Positions 11,757 to 54,786 of a stretch of 55,859 bases of DNA are shown here, piece by piece. The stretch comes from Pararcticibacter amylolyticus (GTDB taxonomy: Bacteria; Bacteroidota; Bacteroidia; Sphingobacteriales; Sphingobacteriaceae). The first letter of the stretch is position 1. Each line of letters opens with the position of its first letter. Both the position numbers and the translations under genes were made by a program. The stretch spans positions 40,106 to 95,964 of the forward strand of contig NZ_QEAS01000003.1 of assembly GCF_003130405.1 (NCBI RefSeq), given 5' to 3'. Below the pieces are notes generated by a model that did no database searches, had not been told where the DNA came from, and was given only the letters and a program-made list of their open reading frames with translations.

Positions 11757-11816
11757 TGCCTTAATACTAGATGATCGTGGCTGTGGAGTACGCTTCAACA
11801 GAGCAAGCAAGGAATA

Positions 11817-11891
11817 CTTTTCCCTTCGCCGGAATTACCCGGATCAGGTTCAAAGGGTATTATCTCAGCTCATTTAAGAGCACCCCTAAAG
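11817..11891 (-). promoter_or_regulatory. TPP (THI-box) riboswitch
   Basis: On the minus strand the sequence reads AGGGGTGC, then GCTGAGATAATACCC, GAACCTGATCCGGGTAAT and CCGGCGAAGGGA, which are the invariant elements of the thiamin pyrophosphate aptamer. CTTT and AAAG at the ends can close stem P1. It stands 60 bases ahead of the thiM ATG; ligand binding should lower expression of thiM-thiE-thiD-tenA-nudix. I see no strong T-run hairpin before thiM, so control may act on translation initiation. Confidence 0.95.
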
Positions 11892-11897
11892 CCGCGC

Positions 11898-41573: not shown

Positions 41574-41644
41574 GGTCGGATGGCCGAGTGGCTAGGCAGA
41601 GGTCTGCAAAACCTCCTACAGCGGTTCGAATCCGCTTCCGACCT
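41574..41644 (+). tRNA. tRNA-Cys (GCA)
   Basis: A complete 71-base cloverleaf: acceptor GGTCGGA/TCCGACC, D-arm GCCGAGTGGCTAGGC, anticodon stem GAGGT/ACCTC with loop CTGCAAA (anticodon GCA), T-arm AGCGG-TTCGAAT-CCGCT, and discriminator U as usual for tRNA-Cys. CCA is not encoded. Confidence 0.97.
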
Positions 41645-41672
41645 CACAGGAGAAAACATTAAAAAGAAAACC

Positions 41673-46589: not shown

Positions 46590-46605
46590 GAATCTTTAAA
46601 AAACG

Positions 46606-46613
46606 CAAAGGTA
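46606..46613 (-). promoter_or_regulatory. -7 box of the BaiN-like gene
   Basis: On the minus strand TACCTTTG matches TAnnTTTG exactly, 16 bases before the ATG. No -33 TTTG is apparent. Confidence 0.4.
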
Positions 46614-46690
46614 ATTAATAATCCTAAACATTAGTTTCTCCGGACGAACCGTTAGCGGGCATTTCTTTGTCGTACAATCGCATTTAAAAT

Positions 46691-46720
46691 TTTGTTATTA
46701 ATGATGGATTTGTATATTTG
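46691..46720 (+). promoter_or_regulatory. Promoter of the histidine operon
   Basis: TTTG (46691-46694), an 18-base spacer, and TATATTTG (46713-46720) give a full match to the Bacteroidota housekeeping promoter. Predicted transcription start is near 46727, giving a leader of about 155 bases before hisG. Confidence 0.75.
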
Positions 46721-46751
46721 CGCTCCCGGTTTTAATCAGGAGTTACAATAA

Positions 46752-46799
46752 ATGCAAATATTTTTCACATATCACCGTCATTTCCATCATCGCCCCTGA
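46752..46799 (+). CDS. hisL: His operon leader peptide (15 aa, His-rich)
   Basis: An ATG with an AGGAG site 9 bases upstream opens a 15-codon frame, MQIFFTYHRHFHHRP, ending in TGA. Four of the last eight residues are His (codons at 46773, 46779, 46785, 46788), which marks a leader peptide for attenuation control by charged tRNA-His. It lies between the his promoter and hisG, and the tandem His codons fall inside the 5' arm of a hairpin, where a stalled ribosome would change RNA folding. It is too short for usual gene finders. Confidence 0.85.
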   Translation: MQIFFTYHRHFHHRP

Positions 46800-46845
46800 G
46801 GCGATATGATGAACTTGTACGGTTTCTACGTGAAACTGATTTTAT
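46785..46845 (+). promoter_or_regulatory. Attenuator hairpins of the his operon
   Basis: Hairpin A: CATCATCGCC (46785-46794) with GGCGATATGATG (46800-46811), ten pairs with a 2-base bulge, its 5' arm made of the last two His codons. Hairpin B: CGGTTTC (46820-46826) with GAAACTG (46832-46838), followed by ATTTTATT, a weak terminator-like tail. I could not settle the antiterminator pairing by eye. Confidence 0.55.
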
Positions 46846-46881
46846 TGAACTTATTTCTTGTACTGATTAAATAATAACGAA

Positions 46882-47733
46882 TTGAAAACACTCAAAATCG
46901 CTATCCAGAAATCGGGTAGACTAAATGAAAAATCTGTTGAGCTTCTTAAAAACTGTGGCTTAAGCTTCGAGAATTATAAGAGTTCCCTTATATCCCCCGT
47001 TTCAAACTTCCCATTAGAAATCCTTTTTTTAAGAGACGATGATATTCCGGAATATGTGCAGGACGGTATTGCCGACCTGGGCATTGTTGGAGAAAACGTC
47101 ATTAATGAAACAGAAGTCGACGTCGCCTATCTTCAAATGCTGGGATTCGGAAAATGCTCGCTTAAGCTGGCTATCCCTAACCAGTGTTCTATTAAAACAC
47201 TTTCTGATCTCAATGGAAAGTCTATCGCTACGTCTTACCCTGTTATATTGAGAAAATTTCTTGAGAAAAATTTCGTACAGGCAGATATCCGTACTATCTC
47301 CGGATCCGTAGAGATATCCCCCGGACTCGGCCTGAGCGATGCTATCTGCGATCTTGTATCAACAGGAGGTACGCTGAAAAGTAACGGTCTTACTCCTTTT
47401 GCAGATGTATTACATTCTGAGGCGGTAATGATCGGACGTAAAGGAATCGAGAATGACCCATTAATTATTGAGCTCATCCAGAGGGTTCAATCCGTATTGC
47501 GTGCGAAAGAAACAAAATACGTAGTTCTTAATATTGAAGAAAAGAACCTTGATGCCATCAAAGCTCTTCTGCCGGGCATCAAAAGTCCTACTGTAGTGCC
47601 ACTTGCAGAAAAAGGCTGGGCGGCAGTTCATACCGTTATACCGGAGAAAGATTTCTGGAGCAAAATCAACGAATTAAAAGCTGCGGGAGCTCAGGGAATT
47701 GTGGTAATGCCCATAGAAAAAATAATTCTTTAG
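46882..47733 (+). CDS. hisG: ATP phosphoribosyltransferase, long form
   Basis: A 283-residue enzyme for the first, feedback-controlled step of histidine synthesis (ATP + PRPP). It has IAIQKSGRLNEKSVELLKNCGL, LRDDDIPEYVQDGIADLGIVGENV, IATSYPVILRKFLEK and the PRPP loop DAICDLVSTGGTLKSNGL. The C-terminal regulatory domain (about 210-283; PTVVPLAEKGWAAVHTVIPEKDF) shows it is the long form that needs no HisZ. The start is TTG at 46882, with no ATG close by. First structural gene of the his operon, 82 bases after the leader peptide stop. Confidence 0.95.
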   Translation: MKTLKIAIQKSGRLNEKSVELLKNCGLSFENYKSSLISPVSNFPLEILFLRDDDIPEYVQDGIADLGIVGENVINETEVDVAYLQMLGFGKCSLKLAIPNQCSIKTLSDLNGKSIATSYPVILRKFLEKNFVQADIRTISGSVEISPGLGLSDAICDLVSTGGTLKSNGLTPFADVLHSEAVMIGRKGIENDPLIIELIQRVQSVLRAKETKYVVLNIEEKNLDAIKALLPGIKSPTVVPLAEKGWAAVHTVIPEKDFWSKINELKAAGAQGIVVMPIEKIIL

Positions 47734-47798
47734 ATCCTGGATACCAGCTTACATCTTACCACGAGACCACGGTTTTGGGGTAATAATATGAGAGAACA

Positions 47799-49124
47799 AT
47801 GAAAGTCATAAGCTTTAATCCTGATGATAAGGAAACTGGTTTTACAGCGATGCCGGATATCGAAACCCTTATTGCGAGAAATATTGATCCTGATAAAACA
47901 ATAACAGAGCGTGTTGAGGCCATAATATCCGATGTAAAAACGAATGGAGACAAAGCTTTATTTGATTTCGCTGAACGTTTTGATGGCGTAAAACTTGAGA
48001 AACTGTTTATCGGCGCCGGGGAAATAAGAGAACTGGCATCTGCTATAGGAGAAGAACAGAAATCGGCTATAGATACCGCCTATCACAATATCCGGCTGTT
48101 TCACGAAAGCCAGTATAAAAAGGAAGACAAGATAGAAACCATGCCTGGCGTAACTTGCTGGCGCGATTCGCGACCGATTGAGAAAGTCGGCCTTTATATT
48201 CCCGGCGGATCCGCGGTTTTGCCGAGCACCTTCCTGATGCTGGGCATACCGGCCAGAATTGCCGGTTGCAGGGAGATTATTGTTTGCTCCCCGCCTCAGA
48301 AGGATGGCGGGATAAATTGCTTCCTTGCCTATGTAGCAACCTTGCTGGATATAGACCGCATTTATTTATGCGGTGGTGCCCAGGCCGTAGCAGCTATGGC
48401 GTTCGGGACAGAAAGCATTGCTAAAGCAGATAAGATATTTGGCCCCGGGAACCAGTATGTAACCCGGGCAAAAACAATTATCCAATCTACCTCTCAAACC
48501 GCAATTGATATGCCGGCAGGGCCATCGGAGGTTCTCGTCATTGCCGACGAAAGTTCAGTACCGGCCTTTGTTGCTGCCGACCTTCTTGCACAGGCCGAGC
48601 ATGGCCCCGATTCGCAGGCAGTCCTTGTTTCAAACGCAGAAGAGGTTATTAACGAGATCATAGAAAAATTAAAGCAGCAGCTCGAATTACTTCCCAGAAA
48701 AGATATTGCCGCTAAGGCTTTAGCCAATTCTTATGCAGTACTGACAGATGATCTTCGCGAAGCAATGGATTTCAGTAACAGATATGCTCCTGAACATCTC
48801 ATCCTGGCAACAGATCAATGGCGGGACCTGATTTCATCGATCAGTAATGCAGGTTCTGTATTCCTGGGGAATCTTACTCCGGAAAGTGCTGGTGACTATG
48901 CATCGGGAACAAATCATACTCTACCGACCAGCGCGTATGCACGCTCTTATTCGGGCGTATCGCTCGATTCGTTCCTTAAAAAGATCACCTTCCAGCATAT
49001 CACAGCGGAAGGTGTCAGAAATATCGCTCCCACGGTGGAAGTGCTCGCTGAACTCGAAGGCTTACAGGCTCACAAAAACGCCATGGCGGTGAGAAGAACC
49101 ATGAGCTATGAGGACAATTACTAA
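47799..49124 (+). CDS. hisD: Histidinol dehydrogenase
   Basis: A 441-residue zinc enzyme that makes the final two NAD-linked oxidations from histidinol to histidine. Motifs: VGLYIPGGSAVLPSTFLML, GGAQAVAAMAFGTESI, KIFGPGNQYVTRAK, IDMPAGPSEVLVIAD, LAQAEHGPDSQAVLVS (Zn ligands), YAPEHLIL and YASGTNHTLPT. Length is slightly above the usual 430. Second in the operon, 65 bases after hisG, the largest internal gap. Confidence 0.96.
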   Translation: MKVISFNPDDKETGFTAMPDIETLIARNIDPDKTITERVEAIISDVKTNGDKALFDFAERFDGVKLEKLFIGAGEIRELASAIGEEQKSAIDTAYHNIRLFHESQYKKEDKIETMPGVTCWRDSRPIEKVGLYIPGGSAVLPSTFLMLGIPARIAGCREIIVCSPPQKDGGINCFLAYVATLLDIDRIYLCGGAQAVAAMAFGTESIAKADKIFGPGNQYVTRAKTIIQSTSQTAIDMPAGPSEVLVIADESSVPAFVAADLLAQAEHGPDSQAVLVSNAEEVINEIIEKLKQQLELLPRKDIAAKALANSYAVLTDDLREAMDFSNRYAPEHLILATDQWRDLISSISNAGSVFLGNLTPESAGDYASGTNHTLPTSAYARSYSGVSLDSFLKKITFQHITAEGVRNIAPTVEVLAELEGLQAHKNAMAVRRTMSYEDNY

Positions 49125-49138
49125 AACAGCTTAAAAAG

Positions 49139-50185
49139 ATGGACTTAAAAAAGATATTAAGAACGAACATACAAAACCTGGTACCCTACTCGTCCGCACG
49201 GGACGAGTTTCAGGGAGAGGCCTCCGTTTTCCTGGATGCTAACGAAAACAGCTTCGGTTCACCGCTTGCGACTGCATATAACCGCTATCCTGACCCGCTT
49301 CAGCTGGCAGTAAAAAAGAAGATAAGCGAAATAAAGGGCGTGCCTCCTCAGAATATTTTCCTGGGGAACGGAAGTGACGAGGCCATCGATATCCTTATCC
49401 GAGCTTTCTGCCGGCCGGGTATCGATAATATTATCCTGCTTCCTCCCACCTATGGGATGTATGAAGTATCAGCCAATATTAATGATGTCGCTGTAAAGAA
49501 AGTGCCGCTGACTGCAGGGTACCAGCTTAATCTTGAGGGCATAGCAGAAGCCATTGATGAGAATACCAAACTGATCTTTATCTGCTCCCCTAACAATCCT
49601 ACTGCTAATTCCATTTACAGAGAGGATATTGAGACCGTATTAGCCAACTTTCCCGGATTAGTGATAATCGACGAGGCATATATTAATTACTCGCGGCAGA
49701 AAACATTTATCCGCGAATTAACAGAGTATAACAACCTGGTTATTCTTCAGACACTTTCCAAAGCATGGGGACTTGCCGGGCTGCGAGTGGGAATGGCATT
49801 TGCAAGTGAAGAAATTATCGAAGTGTTCAATAAGGTGAAGCCTCCCTATAACATCAATGAGGCTTCTCAGCAATTAGCCTTAAATGCGCTTCAGAACGTT
49901 GACCAGGTAAACGAATGGATCAGGGAAACAGTGGCTGAAAGAGACCGGTTGGGTACGGCGCTTCTTGATTTACACTGCGTGCGGGAAATATTTCCGTCTG
50001 ATGCAAATTTCCTTTTGGTAAAAACCACCGATGCAAAAGGCATATATCAGTTTCTGGTAGAACGGGGCATCATTGTACGCGATCGCTCTAATGTCATCCT
50101 GTGCGAAGATAGTCTTCGTATCACAATAGGAACACCAAACGAAAACACTCTTTTACTCGGGGCTCTGAAGTCTTTCCCTCACTAA
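49139..50185 (+). CDS. hisC: Histidinol-phosphate aminotransferase
   Basis: A 348-residue PLP-dependent class I/II aminotransferase acting on imidazole-acetol phosphate. It shows [52 protein letters not shown], and the PLP lysine Lys208 in [19 protein letters not shown]. It starts 14 bases after hisD and is followed closely by hisB. Confidence 0.96.
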
Positions 50186-50192
50186 GAATTAT

Positions 50193-51362
50193 ATGGATAC
50201 TTTTGAAAATAATGCTGCGTCGCCCAAAAAGAAAATTCTGTTTCTTGACAGGGACGGCACAATGGTACTGGAACCTGAAGACTACCAGGTAGACTCCTTC
50301 AGTAAACTCGAGTTTTATCCAGGTGCATTTAAATACCTGAATAAAATAGCAGAAGAACTTGATTTTGATTTGGTTATGGTAACCAATCAGGATGGGCTCG
50401 GCACAGATTCCCATCCCGAAGAAAACTTCTGGCCGGTGCACAACTTCATTCTTAAGTCCTTTGAAAACGAAGGCGTTAGCTTCAAAGAAGTCATTATTGA
50501 CAAGACGTTTGCCCATGAGAATGCCCCTACCCGCAAACCGGGCACGGAGCTGCTCTTACATTATTTTGACGGGGATAAATACGACCTCGCCAATTCTTAC
50601 GTTATAGGAGACCGGGTTACAGATGTAGTATTAGCAAAGAACCTGGGATCCAGGGCAATATGGTTAAAGCTGGATGACTCGCTCGGAGCTGACGAAATAA
50701 AAGAAAAGGCCGGTGAATTGAAGGATTGTCTGGCACTTGAAACAACTTCATGGAAAGAAGTATATGAATTTCTAAAAGCCGGAAAAAGAGAGGTAGAACA
50801 CAGAAGGACTACTAAAGAGACAGATATCAGCATCAGGATCAACCTCGACGGCAAAGGCAATGCAAAGATTTCAACCGGCTTGCATTTCTTTGATCATATG
50901 CTCGATCAGATTGCCCGTCACGGGGGAATGGATCTTGAGATAGAAGCAAAAGGAGATTTACATATAGACGAACATCACACTATTGAAGACACTGGAATTA
51001 CACTTGGAGAAGCAATTGCCAAAGCTCTGGGTGATAAAAGAGGAATCGAGAGATATGGTTTCTGTCTTCCGATGGACGATTGCCTGGCCCAGGTTGCCAT
51101 AGATTTTGGAGGACGCAACTGGATTGTCTGGGATGCTGAGTTTAAGCGTGAAAAGGTCGGAGAAATGCCTACCGAGATGTTTTTCCATTTTTTCAAGTCA
51201 TTCAGTGACGCGGCAAAATGCAACCTGAATATTAAAGCAGAGGGGGCCAATGAGCATCATAAAATTGAGGCTATTTTTAAGGCTTTTGCAAAAGCGATCA
51301 AAATGGCAGCTAAAAGGGATGTTAATAATATGTGGCTGCCCAGTACAAAAGGATTGATCTGA
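50193..51362 (+). CDS. hisB: Bifunctional histidinol-phosphatase / imidazoleglycerol-phosphate dehydratase
   Basis: A 389-residue fusion. The N-terminal HAD phosphatase (1-170) has LFLDRDGT with Asp19 and Asp21, VTNQDGLG and GDRVTDV. Its loop HENAPTRKP (108-116) lacks the cysteines that bind zinc in the Escherichia coli enzyme. The C-terminal dehydratase (about 202-389) has [18 protein letters not shown], the metal motifs [10 protein letters not shown] (259-268), [11 protein letters not shown] and [14 protein letters not shown]. It catalyses steps six and eight of the pathway. Eight bases after hisC. Confidence 0.96.
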
Positions 51363-51386
51363 CACAACAATATACAGTAAAAAGCT

Positions 51387-52034
51387 ATGGCGGAAGAGAG
51401 CAATTTACAGTACCAGAATTCTGTTCAAACAGATGAAGGGAAGAAGACCGGGATCATTTCATACGGTGCCGGCAATATTTTTTCACTCACAGCAGCACTC
51501 GAACGTCAGAATATCCCATTCGGGATGATCTATTCACCTGAAGAGTTCGATCAGTACGACCGGTATATCATTCCCGGTGTCGGCCATGCCGGTGCTGCCA
51601 TGCAGAAACTGGAAGAAAGCCGGATGATAGAAAAAATAAAATCGACCTCAAAACCGGTCCTGGGGATATGCGTGGGAATGCAATTATTAACCGATTTTTC
51701 TGAGGAAGGAAATGCACATCTGCTGTCTATTGCCCCGCTGAGAACCAGGCATTTTGATGAAACGCTTCAGATTAAAGTGCCTCACACAGGCTGGAACAAA
51801 GTTTGCTCTCAGTTTGAAAATGAATTATTTAATGATATAAAGGATGGCACTTACTTTTATTTTGTTCATTCCTATTTTATCGAATTTAATCCTACTTTTA
51901 CACTCGCTTTTGCTGATTACGGGGTTAAATTTTCAGCGGCGTTGAAAAAAAACAATTTTTACGGAGTCCAGTTTCATCCTGAGAAATCCGGTGAAGCAGG
52001 AGAAAAAATACTCAAAAACTTTTCAGAATTATAG
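51387..52034 (+). CDS. hisH: Imidazole glycerol phosphate synthase, glutaminase subunit
   Basis: A 215-residue class I glutamine amidotransferase that feeds ammonia to HisF. Catalytic Cys95 is in LGICVGMQLL, and His197/Glu199 are in VQFHPEKSGEAG. The N-terminus GIISYGAGN is preceded by about 20 extra residues (MAEESNLQYQNSVQTDEGKK), absent from most HisH; no later ATG would keep the core intact. 24 bases after hisB and 6 before hisA. Confidence 0.94.
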   Translation: MAEESNLQYQNSVQTDEGKKTGIISYGAGNIFSLTAALERQNIPFGMIYSPEEFDQYDRYIIPGVGHAGAAMQKLEESRMIEKIKSTSKPVLGICVGMQLLTDFSEEGNAHLLSIAPLRTRHFDETLQIKVPHTGWNKVCSQFENELFNDIKDGTYFYFVHSYFIEFNPTFTLAFADYGVKFSAALKKNNFYGVQFHPEKSGEAGEKILKNFSEL

Positions 52035-52040
52035 AAACAT

Positions 52041-52790
52041 ATGTACATCATCCCTGCAATTGACATTCTGGACAAGAAAGTTGTCCGCTTGCGAGAAGGA
52101 AACTACGATCAGGCTACATTTTACGATGTAACATTGGAAGAGATGATCGAAAAGTACCAGTCGAATGGTACAGAATTCGTTCATGTTATTGATCTGAACG
52201 GAGCTAAAGGAGACTTCAGCAATCAGGAATATCTCTTCGATATCATCCACAAAACCGAAATGAAAGTTCAGTACGGTGGGGGTGTGCGCAGTATTGAGAA
52301 AGTTAAAGAACTGATCGACGCAGGAGTGCACCGGGTAATCGTGGGCACACAGGCTATCACCAACCCTGAATTTTTAACAGAGCTGAGCAAAGCAATCTGC
52401 GGAAAACAACAGTGCTCCGACCAGGTAGTAGTTGCGATAGACGTGCTTGATGAAGTGATCAAATACTCTGGCTGGATGGAAAGCTCTCCGATAAAGCTCA
52501 TGGATTATGTAGACCGTTGCTTAAATCTTGGCTTTTTCCGGTTCCTCTGCACAGACATCAATAAAGATGGAAAGCTGGGGGGAGCAGGCGTTGACCTGTA
52601 TAAGAAATTACTGGAACACTCTCCTTTTATCAAGCTTATCGCTTCAGGCGGCATCAGTTCTATGGAGGACATCAAGATATTGCATGATATTAAAGTGGAA
52701 TCATGTGTCGTGGGCAAAGCGATTTACGAAGGCATGATCTCGATAGAAGAAATCCAGGATTGGAATCTGAAATCCCTGATTTCATTTTAA
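52041..52790 (+). CDS. hisA: ProFAR isomerase
   Basis: A 249-residue TIM-barrel isomerase that opens the ribose of ProFAR to PRFAR. Visible: IIPAIDILDKKVVRLREGNYD with catalytic Asp8, VQYGGGVRSIEKVKELIDAGVHRVIVGTQA, VVVAIDV, DINKDGKLGGAGVDLYKKL and IASGGISSMEDI with the two phosphate-binding glycine loops. It is homologous to HisF, which follows. Starts 6 bases after hisH. Confidence 0.95.
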   Translation: MYIIPAIDILDKKVVRLREGNYDQATFYDVTLEEMIEKYQSNGTEFVHVIDLNGAKGDFSNQEYLFDIIHKTEMKVQYGGGVRSIEKVKELIDAGVHRVIVGTQAITNPEFLTELSKAICGKQQCSDQVVVAIDVLDEVIKYSGWMESSPIKLMDYVDRCLNLGFFRFLCTDINKDGKLGGAGVDLYKKLLEHSPFIKLIASGGISSMEDIKILHDIKVESCVVGKAIYEGMISIEEIQDWNLKSLISF

Positions 52791-52835
52791 ACCGCCGGAC
52801 ACCCATGTGTGTCCCGGCCCCCTACTTCGTTCACT

Positions 52836-53693
52836 ATGACGAATCACAGTTACAATTATAATCAGTCTGCTGCACCGCAAGCTTCTGAAAGAGAAAATGA
52901 CCTGCCGCAGGCAGATCATTTTCCTGCTATAAGCGGAGGCCTCGCCAAGCGCATCATCCCATGTCTGGATGTCAAAGACGGACGCACGGTGAAAGGTGTT
53001 AACTTTGTTGACCTTCGTGATGCCGGTGATCCGGTCGAACTGGCCTGGCAGTATTCGCAGCAAGGCGCAGACGAGCTGGTCTTTCTCGACATTACAGCGA
53101 CTCATGAGAGACGCAAAACCATGGTCGAACTTGTTAAGGCAGTTGCACGGCAGGTAAACATCCCGTTTACTATAGGCGGGGGAATAAACGAAATAGCAGA
53201 CGCCGACATTCTGCTTAACGCAGGGGCAGACAAGATATCCATCAATTCGGCGGCAGTCCGCAGCCCTGAACTGGTAAATGAGTTAGCAAATGCGTTTGGA
53301 AAACAGTTCGTGGTGGTCGCGGTAGATACCAAGAATATAAATGGCAAAAATCTCGTCCACCTGAATGGAGGACGGATTCCGACTGATATTGAAACGAAAA
53401 AATGGATTAAAGAGGTGGAAGAACGTGGTGCGGGAGAGATCCTGCTTACTTCCATGGATCATGACGGTACTAAAGGCGGATTCGACAATACGCTCCTGAA
53501 GAAGATCAATGACTCCATATCCATCCCCCTGATCGCTTCAGGAGGTGCCGGATCAGAACAGCACTTTATCGACGTTTTTAAGCTGACGAACGTGGATGCT
53601 GCCCTGGCAGCATCGGTGTTTCACTACGGCGAAATTCTGATTCCCGACCTCAAAGCGAAACTGAAGAAAGAAAACATTGAAGTAAGATTCTAG
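52836..53693 (+). CDS. hisF: Imidazole glycerol phosphate synthase, cyclase subunit, with N-terminal extension
   Basis: A TIM-barrel cyclase (285 residues from the ATG at 52836; a GTG at 52809 is also open). The core begins [22 protein letters not shown] with catalytic Asp in CLDVKDG, and continues [54 protein letters not shown] (second catalytic Asp), [14 protein letters not shown] and [16 protein letters not shown]. About 34 residues of polar sequence precede the core, whereas most HisF proteins start right at it. The extension overlaps a palindrome (52893-52923). Confidence 0.93.
52893..52923 (+). repeat. Palindrome within the hisF 5' extension
   Basis: GAAAATGACCTGC (52893-52905) and GCAGATCATTTTC (52911-52923) form an inverted repeat of 13 bases with one mismatch, separated by CGCAG. 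The CCTGC/GCAGG core resembles short interspersed palindromes of Bacteroidota genomes. Confidence 0.6.
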
Positions 53694-53695
53694 CT

Positions 53696-54208
53696 ATGTC
53701 TCTACAGTTGGAAACCGAAAGATTGATAATGAGGTGTATGCAACCAGAGGATGCAGAGTACATGTTTGATCTTAACAGTGACCCTGATGTGATCCGCTAT
53801 ACCGGTGATAAGCCCTTCAACAACATTGAAGAAGCCCTGAATCTGATCCTGAATTATGACCAGTATTCAAAATACCGGATGGGAAGGCTCAACATGTTCC
53901 TTAAATCAACAGGAGAATATATTGGTTGGTGCGGATTAAAATACCACCAGGATTCAGGAGAAACTGACATCGGATACCGGCTGAAAAAAAGTTGCTGGGG
54001 ATATGGGTACGCTACCGAGTCGGGCAAGGCTAGTCTTGCCTATGGGTTTTCTGATCTTGGCCTGCCCTCTATCGTAGGGCATGCTCTGAAAGAAAATACC
54101 GCATCGATCAGGGTGCTGGAAAAACTAGGATTGAAATATATGCAGGACACGGAGTTCGATGATGAACCCGGAGTCTTATATAAAATAACACAAACGGAAT
54201 GGAAATAG
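53696..54208 (+). CDS. GNAT-family N-acetyltransferase inside the his operon
   Basis: A 170-residue acetyltransferase of the RimJ/RimL type: LETERLIMRCMQPEDAEYMFDLNSDPDVIRYTGD, ETDIGYRLKKSCWGYGYATES (acetyl-CoA loop) and IVGHALKENTASIRVLEKLGLKY. It starts 2 bases after the hisF stop and its end overlaps hisIE by 10 bases, so it belongs to the operon. It has no known step in histidine synthesis. It could acetylate an amino group of a metabolite or protein; substrate unknown. Confidence 0.9.
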   Translation: MSLQLETERLIMRCMQPEDAEYMFDLNSDPDVIRYTGDKPFNNIEEALNLILNYDQYSKYRMGRLNMFLKSTGEYIGWCGLKYHQDSGETDIGYRLKKSCWGYGYATESGKASLAYGFSDLGLPSIVGHALKENTASIRVLEKLGLKYMQDTEFDDEPGVLYKITQTEWK

Positions 54209-54786
54209 ACTTTAATAAGGGTGATGGCCTCGTACCTGTTATCGTGCAGGACGAACAAACCCTGGAGGTTTTAATGCTCGGTTACATGAACGATGAAGCC
54301 TTCAAAAAAACATCAGAAGAAGGAAAAGTAACTTTCTTTTCCCGCTCTAAAAACAGGCTTTGGACCAAAGGAGAAGAAAGCGGAAACTATCTTTACGTCA
54401 AAAGCATCCATGATGACTGCGATCATGATACTCTGCTCATCAAGGCAAGCCCGGTTGGACCGACCTGTCATACAGGATCGAGAAGCTGCTTTTCTACCGG
54501 CTTCAATCAGAATTTCCTGTTCGAACTGGAACATATCATTGCCGACCGTTACGAGAATCCCCGCGAAGGTTCTTACGTCAATAGCCTTCAGAAAAAAGGC
54601 ATCAACAGGATTGCGCAGAAAGTAGGCGAAGAAGGCGTGGAGACGGTAGTAGCAGCGCTCAACCAAACTGAGGATGATCTCATAAACGAAGCTTCAGACC
54701 TCATGTTTCACCTGCTGGTACTCCTTAAAGAAAAGAATATCAGCCTGAAGACAATTGCTGAGAACCTTGAGAAAAGACACAAGTAA
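54199..54786 (+). CDS. hisI: Bifunctional phosphoribosyl-AMP cyclohydrolase / phosphoribosyl-ATP pyrophosphatase
   Basis: A 195-residue HisI-HisE fusion (hisIE) for steps two and three. The N-terminal cyclohydrolase has TLEVLMLGYMNDEAF, VTFFSRSKNRLWTKGEESGN and the zinc/Mg set DDCDHDTLLI followed by CHTGSRSCF. The C-terminal pyrophosphatase (about 108-195) has SYVNSLQKKGINRIAQKVGEEGVE, VVAALN and EASDLMFHLLVLL. Its ATG lies inside the GNAT gene, so translation is coupled. Last his gene of the operon; with it, all steps of the pathway are covered here. Confidence 0.95.
   Translation: MEIDFNKGDGLVPVIVQDEQTLEVLMLGYMNDEAFKKTSEEGKVTFFSRSKNRLWTKGEESGNYLYVKSIHDDCDHDTLLIKASPVGPTCHTGSRSCFSTGFNQNFLFELEHIIADRYENPREGSYVNSLQKKGINRIAQKVGEEGVETVVAALNQTEDDLINEASDLMFHLLVLLKEKNISLKTIAENLEKRHK

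Follow-up and report, generated by a model that had tools for sequence, protein, structure and literature searches.

How does a short histidine-rich reading frame upstream of hisG act on the his operon of Pararcticibacter amylolyticus, by stopping transcription or by controlling the start of translation? The window analyzed here, a stretch of 55,859 nucleotides (nts) of contig NZ_QEAS01000003.1, contains this operon, and the original prediction had placed a complete transcription attenuator in front of it. The features discussed below are collected in Table 1, with positions counted from the first base of the window. The closest HisG proteins were those of a Sphingobacteriales genome (91%) and Arcticibacter species (87%). 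The gene between hisF and hisIE encodes a GNAT acetyltransferase (PF13302; 53696-54208, + strand), and its frame overlaps that of hisIE by 10 bases. Elsewhere the window carries a TPP riboswitch (11804-11897, - strand, 77.7 bits) and a tRNA-Cys gene (41574-41645, + strand).

Table 1. Features of the his leader region and operon in the window
Feature	Position	Strand	Detail
Promoter, taken to be of the Bacteroidota type	46691-46720	+	TTTG at 46691-46694, TATATTTG at 46713-46720, 18 nt between
P0, 5′ arm, near the putative 5′ end of the transcript	46731-46739	+	UUUAAUCAG, predicted to pair with CUGAUUAAA at 46863-46871; mean pair probability 0.93
AGGAG, leader ribosome-binding region	46738-46742	+	Sequence
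Leader ribosome-binding region to first base of ATG, second part of the helix	46740-46752	+	Predicted to pair with 46841-46852: 46740-46744 with 46848-46852 (probability 0.97), 46746-46752 with 46841-46847 (0.98)
Leader peptide gene	46752-46799	+	Translation MQIFFTYHRHFHHRP, then stop; 15 codons, His at codons 8, 10, 12 and 13
S1, His-codon coding segment pairing with the X region	46763-46780	+	Pair probabilities: 46763-46768 with 46830-46835, 46774-46778 with 46819-46823, 46779-46780 with 46816-46817
Hairpin H (hairpin 1), last His codons and stop codon	46785-46811	+	-12.2 kcal/mol; matched by 0 of 200 shuffles
Hairpin X (hairpin 2), GUUUC-UACGU-GAAAC core	46820-46838	+	-6.3 kcal/mol
Partner of the leader ribosome-binding region	46841-46852	+	Pair probabilities
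P0′, 3′ arm	46863-46871	+	11 to 19 nt 5′ of the hisG start
hisG, UUG start	46882-47733	+	Pfam PF01634 and PF08029
his operon: hisG, hisD, hisC, hisB, hisH, hisA, hisF, GNAT acetyltransferase, hisIE	46882-54786	+	Open frames; names other than HisG and GNAT presumed from the look of the sequences

For comparison, 30 of the 41 genomes in a set of relatives had a HisG, as did 133 of 151 in a set of the family Sphingobacteriaceae and 62 of 129 in a set of the class, the genome of the window counted in. These three sets share genomes, and the later counts are of distinct sequences, which for the family means 163 distinct leaders. The loci L031-L110 were counted as Sphingobacteriaceae by HisG identity. 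The outgroups are his loci from other families of the class; 46 leaders from 58 loci were used, after exclusion of three loci lacking a hisG anchor (L253, L254 and L258) and nine in which the filter found no leader.

Inspection of the region upstream of hisG confirmed the promoter, the AGGAG and the frame of 15 codons, four of them for His, all at the positions given in the original prediction. We typed the promoter by what we take to be the Bacteroidota consensus, and transcription would accordingly start at about 46726. When the E. coli-type promoter was used for the scan, no match was obtained at 46691-46720, and the two matches elsewhere in 46590-46900 compare with 1.3 expected. In 154 of 160 family leaders, the motif TAnnTTTG is located 12-95 nt ahead of the ATG of the peptide, as opposed to 7 of 160 when each was shuffled once by mononucleotide. 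A His-codon leader system is defined by a conserved short frame in which His codons cluster, immediately 5′ of his genes, and the filter detected a His-rich leader upstream of hisG at 195 of 201 Sphingobacteriaceae loci, a count that contains some genomes twice. Among the six loci missed by the filter, L107 offers 20 nt of upstream DNA, L115 and L165 have a leader on inspection, and inspection of L013, L166 and L180 revealed no leader at all upstream of hisG. The leader of L165 is down to two His codons, but the arms of its 5′ helix, GGTAAAAGAC and GTCTTTTACC, remain fully complementary. Counted from a Met start that we chose, 161 of 163 family leaders and 30 of 46 outgroup leaders have their last His at codon 11 or beyond, a position that would leave space for a second ribosome. 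Because the leader peptide is real, and the His codons, the promoter and the hairpins described below are conserved, we infer, as was originally proposed, that the operon is controlled by charging of tRNA-His.

The two hairpins of the original prediction, one over the CAT CAT codons and one with a T-rich tail, were also found where they had been placed (H and X in Table 1), and the TGA stop codon of the leader sits in the loop of H. Conservation of both stems was supported by RNAalifold, which recovered H and X from each of two MAFFT alignments of 23 family leaders. Hairpin X is present in 138 of 163 distinct family leaders, with the loops UACGU (86), UACGC (44) and UACUU (8). In the window, X followed by ATTTTATT is the sole terminator-like site in 46590-46900, where 0.2 are expected by chance. 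Across the family, however, it is not as a terminator that X is conserved. A bulge-tolerant search, for which stretches were cut at 180 nt and the two longest thereby shortened, found a U-run hairpin of -8 kcal/mol or better in none of 151 distinct family leaders, whereas 41 of the 46 outgroup leaders had a U-run preceded by a hairpin that reached -12 kcal/mol or better. Shuffled outgroup leaders gave 0 of 46 at -10 and one at -8. In a gap-free search, the window was the only one of the 195 family loci with a leader to have a terminator, a weak one (-6.3), and 28 of the 46 outgroup leaders had one of -10 or better. Three outgroup loci from two families (L230, L241 and L242) have His leaders without a detected terminator, and by the filter the terminator is likewise missing from L216 and L233.

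The absence of his terminators does not reflect a general avoidance of this type of control in the family, because most of its Trp and Thr leaders have them. In counts made by hand and without shuffle control, a terminator of -9.2 or better was found upstream of trpE at 14 of 14 family loci, and a Thr/Ile-rich leader with a terminator of -16 or better was found upstream of thrA at 10 of 14. At 11 of the 14 trpE loci the terminator comes with a leader that has Trp codons in tandem, also by hand count. For ilvD, one of 17 family loci (L271, a relative of Desertivirga) had a leader and a terminator, again without shuffle control. The genome of the window itself has the Trp leader MLIVRHTQNWWWHTLSGAGYDYVYTD with a terminator at -9.2 and the Thr leader MNRIYTTIITIITTRTQYSGGRSYMG with one at -19.4 (L323 and L350, the loci upstream of trpE and thrA). 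These results bear on the possibility of a classical attenuator, in which hairpin X and its U-rich tail would terminate transcription once the ribosome reaches the leader stop. The single terminator-like site in the window and the strong terminators of the outgroups would agree with it, but the stem is weak beside the Trp and Thr terminators of this genome, the tail is imperfect, and no counterpart was found in the other family leaders, and we consider it very unlikely. The original interpretation is therefore partly supported: the leader and its hairpins are conserved, and the complete transcription attenuator is not supported.

Folding predicts a different structure for the whole leader. The 5′ end contains a 9-bp complement to the segment just before hisG (P0 and P0′), which had been overlooked in the original prediction. 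According to the pair probabilities, the leader forms a rod, closed by H, in which the partner of the 5′ end and the leader ribosome-binding site is the pre-hisG segment and that of the His-codon segment is the X region; the mean probability of its parts is 0.88 to 0.98 except for one step of 2 bp (0.50). The pairing of S1 with the X region and hairpin X are mutually exclusive because they share bases. An antiterminator would compete with a terminator in this way, but hairpin X does not serve as one in the family. The fold of 46725-46895 has a z of -3.52, with 0 of 200 shuffles as good, and the mean z of whole-leader folding against shuffles is -3.58, with z below -2 in 37 of 47 representative leaders taken from a hand-compiled list. 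A rod of this length, nearly continuous and this stable, could instead set the stability of the messenger, as a site of RNase III cleavage or a shield of the 5′ end that is altered by translation of the leader. This explanation does not by itself account for the His codons or for the start codon of hisG described below, and we regard it as quite improbable.

The long-range pairing was examined by an own-versus-swapped test, in which the pairing energy of the two segments of one genome is compared with that of exchanged partners. The test covered 148 of the 163 family leaders, the other 15 having a gap of more than 95 nt between leader and hisG, and own partners paired far better than swapped ones (z = -14.9, 0 of 2000 permutations). 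With 78 representatives selected by a 6-mer cut, which were also used for the models described below, the 5′ end paired with the pre-hisG segment at z = -11.8, the His-codon segment with the post-stop segment at z = -10.8 and the His-codon segment with the pre-hisG segment at z = -5.3, each with 0 of 3000 permutations as good. Controls with the same representatives gave -0.4 for the region upstream of the promoter and the pre-hisG segment, +0.7 for the 5′ end and the hisG coding sequence, -0.5 for the 5′ end and the post-stop segment and -1.4 for the upstream and post-stop segments, and the pairing of the 5′ end with the His-codon segment was weaker than chance (z = +2.1). To correct for shared ancestry, segments were swapped within 73 sister pairs. 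The own partner won in 36 of 57 cases for the 5′ end and the pre-hisG segment (Wilcoxon p = 0.0093, sign p = 0.063), in 35 of 52 for the His-codon and post-stop segments (p = 0.00045 and 0.018) and in 31 of 54 for the His-codon and pre-hisG segments (p = 0.0027 and 0.34), and the four controls gave Wilcoxon p values of 0.3 to 0.92. Among the outgroup leaders, only a weak signal was obtained for the 5′ helix (z = -2.1, 57 of 3000), and the pairing of the His-codon and post-stop segments is present (z = -5.9, 0 of 3000).

RNAalifold did not recover the long-range helix from either of the two alignments, in our view because its arms drift too fast for sequence alignment. The 148 family leaders have 97 distinct 5′ arms, and 105 of the 1258 helix pairs are G-U; the arms GACCAGAAA/UUUCUGGUC (L152) and GGCCAGUAA/UUACUGGUC (L157) illustrate the divergence. 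The arms could also be imagined as DNA sites of a transcription factor, since in some genera they are near-palindromic (TTATTAATAA). However, the number of distinct arms and the proportion of G-U pairs are as expected for RNA, and the arm of the window is no palindrome, which makes DNA sites extremely unlikely. The structure resembles a translational attenuator in pairing with the downstream start region despite change in sequence, and in 129 of 148 leaders no more than 25 nt separate the end of the 3′ arm of the best helix from the start of hisG.

The start codon next to this arm is a weak one. With a gap of up to 95 nt between leader and hisG, the start was UUG in 87, GUG in 60 and AUG in one of the 148 family leaders, counts that are not independent owing to kinship among the genomes, and no in-frame AUG was found before residue 1 of HisG or in codons 2-9 in any of them. 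The 15 family leaders with a longer gap all have an AUG start. An in-frame AUG was available at 18 of 18 trpE loci, four of them from outgroups, and at 15 of 15 ilvD loci, taken from 19 after two outgroup loci and two with cut flanks were omitted. In the outgroups, hisG starts with AUG in 44 of 46 cases, 21 of which are from the nearest in-frame start; in this assignment, 23 starts were at the aligned first residue, 22 were the nearest in-frame start within 7 codons (21 ATG and 1 TTG), and one was left without assignment. A non-AUG start beside the helix is what control of the translation start would favor, and together with the conservation of the long-range helix it points to translation control. 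Four points are shown by comparison of sequences, namely that the leader exists, that both helices are kept, that a terminator is missing and that hisG has a non-AUG start. Our reading is that this is a His-codon-sensing leader that acts at translation and not by an intrinsic terminator, and we see about equal weight for and against it.

Several results count against this reading: the long-range helix missing from the RNAalifold folds, the sign p of 0.063 for the 5′ helix in sister pairs, the weak 5′-end signal of the outgroups, the three family loci lacking a leader and, in the model described below, the small effect of a ribosome stalled on the His codons. The 15 family leaders with a gap of more than 95 nt, which cover at least three genera (g4, g5 and g16), count against it as well. 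Several of them keep strong 5′ pairing in a longer stretch analyzed by RNAduplex, although at this distance the pairing cannot directly hide the hisG start. In six loci (L020, L062, L172, L173, L179 and L182), TTGAA persists shortly past the 5′ helix region and the ATG of hisG is about 70 nt or more downstream. Four others (L021, L177, L188 and L190) have another his leader, of the MITKQHIALHHHTHLHHGHHHHCA type, with a spacer of 117-122 nt and an AUG start of hisG, and hairpin X was not found in these four. The persistence of 5′ pairing where hisG is distant would suit attenuation without an intrinsic terminator, in which the target of Rho, or of a paused RNA polymerase, is the untranslated RNA from the leader stop to hisG, and the rod or X gates the loading of Rho. 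A run of C after X is visible by eye in many family sequences, and Rho has been suggested for the terminator-less Cys leaders of mycobacteria, according to an extract of PMC1262725. On the other hand, the window lacks the C-run, and such attenuation would leave the near-universal non-AUG start of hisG and the adjoining 3′ arm unexplained; we judge it unlikely.

Returning to control at translation, we consider how the rod could respond to histidine. The idle leader would be closed into a single rod, with the start of the leader and the start region of hisG both hidden, and a ribosome on the leader start would break the rod and expose hisG, which would depend on this exposure because of its UUG start. 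When charged tRNA-His is scarce, ribosomes would stall on the His codons, and behind a stall at codons 12-13 a second ribosome could just fit at the leader start and wait there, judged by the size of ribosome footprints. The queued ribosome would hold the rod open and hisG would be on; with plentiful His, ribosomes would clear the leader and the rod would reclose. We infer repression by the rod, its opening under His starvation and the queueing of ribosomes, and it is guesswork that starvation leads to opening.

In an equilibrium model of the 78 representatives, the cost of opening the hisG start region was 5.88 kcal/mol with a free leader and 3.96 with the leader start occupied (p = 9 × 10-9), and a ribosome on the first His codon gave 5.62 compared with 5.92 for one on the stop codon (p = 0.054). 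The corresponding costs for the window were 8.64 (free), 3.58 (leader start occupied), 8.65 (first His codon) and 8.64 (stop codon). Opening of hisG by a lone ribosome stalled on the His codons was thus not borne out, as the modeled cost barely changed. When a second ribosome at the leader start was added to the stalled one, the cost was 4.03 (4.23 for the window), and compared with a ribosome on the stop codon this queue made opening easier in 49 and harder in 12 of the 78 (p = 5 × 10-9). In the model, then, opening of hisG depends on the leader start being occupied, and the role of stalling would be to keep ribosomes queued. A more far-reaching reading, that the whole family has swapped its his terminator for a mutual lock, a single helix over the start of hisG (UUG or GUG) and the leader ribosome-binding site, with shortage of His read as a queue of two ribosomes of which the second keeps the lock open, is offered tentatively.

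Translational coupling was considered separately. A frame at 46806-46874 (22 codons), which ends 7 nt before hisG, was rejected as a coupling frame. In a hand-compiled list of 60 representatives, frame 0 had a stop close to the start of hisG in 42 cases and frame 1 in 35, compared with 37.9 and 34.5 expected from shuffles. The coupling frames seen in long-spacer lineages differ between species and were dropped as evidence.

Among known systems, the enterobacterial his attenuator (RF00514, His_leader) also has a His-rich leader before hisG, paired His codons and mutually exclusive pairings. It differs from the family leaders, which have no intrinsic terminator by the search of 151 sequences, pair their 5′ end with the pre-hisG segment and start hisG with UUG or GUG; RF00514 had no match in the window at the gathering score or up to an E of 10. 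The outgroup his leaders share the His-rich leader and the pairing of the His-codon segment with the post-stop segment, and they differ in their strong terminators, AUG starts and weak 5′-end pairing. The ermC and cat translational attenuators are alike in having a leader peptide and in keeping the downstream start hidden by RNA structure for as long as the leader carries no ribosome. Those systems, however, sense a drug and not an amino acid, and they are not known to tie the ribosome-binding site of the leader and the downstream start together in one helix.

In the open-license literature, the titles and abstract openings of the matches listed did not name a his leader of Sphingobacteriaceae. 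Extracts of several papers give related cases. The Cys leaders of actinobacteria are, as given in part of PMC1262725, amino-acid-rich and without an obvious terminator; these and the LEU element differ from the present leader in amino acid, in phylum and in having a pseudoknot instead of a rod, and for the LEU element the same extract argues against codon-dependent control. Mycobacterial Cys attenuators are attributed to Canestrari 2020 in a passage of PMC9031893. An excerpt of PMC9413887 states that some attenuators have a structure that hides the ribosome-binding site in place of a terminator, and that the RF00514 motif was not found in Firmicutes. Leader peptides were formerly known only from Proteobacteria and Actinobacteria, with Firmicutes then added, as summarized in part of PMC2965389. 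For Bacteroidota, extracts mention clues for leader-peptide attenuation at amino-acid operons of Flavobacterium (PMC9723704), short frames reminiscent of leader peptides in 5′ UTRs of Bacteroides (PMC7366714) and reinitiation after leader frames, in Bacteroidetes too, where the hisG leaders named in the extract are gamma-proteobacterial (PMC4833913).

The comparison suggests an evolutionary switch in the amino-acid sensing of one operon, in which neighboring families stop transcription and Sphingobacteriaceae appear to control the start of translation. Within these cells, terminators are kept by most Trp and Thr leaders, which offers a natural comparison of the two modes, which bears on the control of gene starts in Bacteroidota. 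Searches for attenuators that rely on terminators would miss the his leaders of Sphingobacteriaceae.
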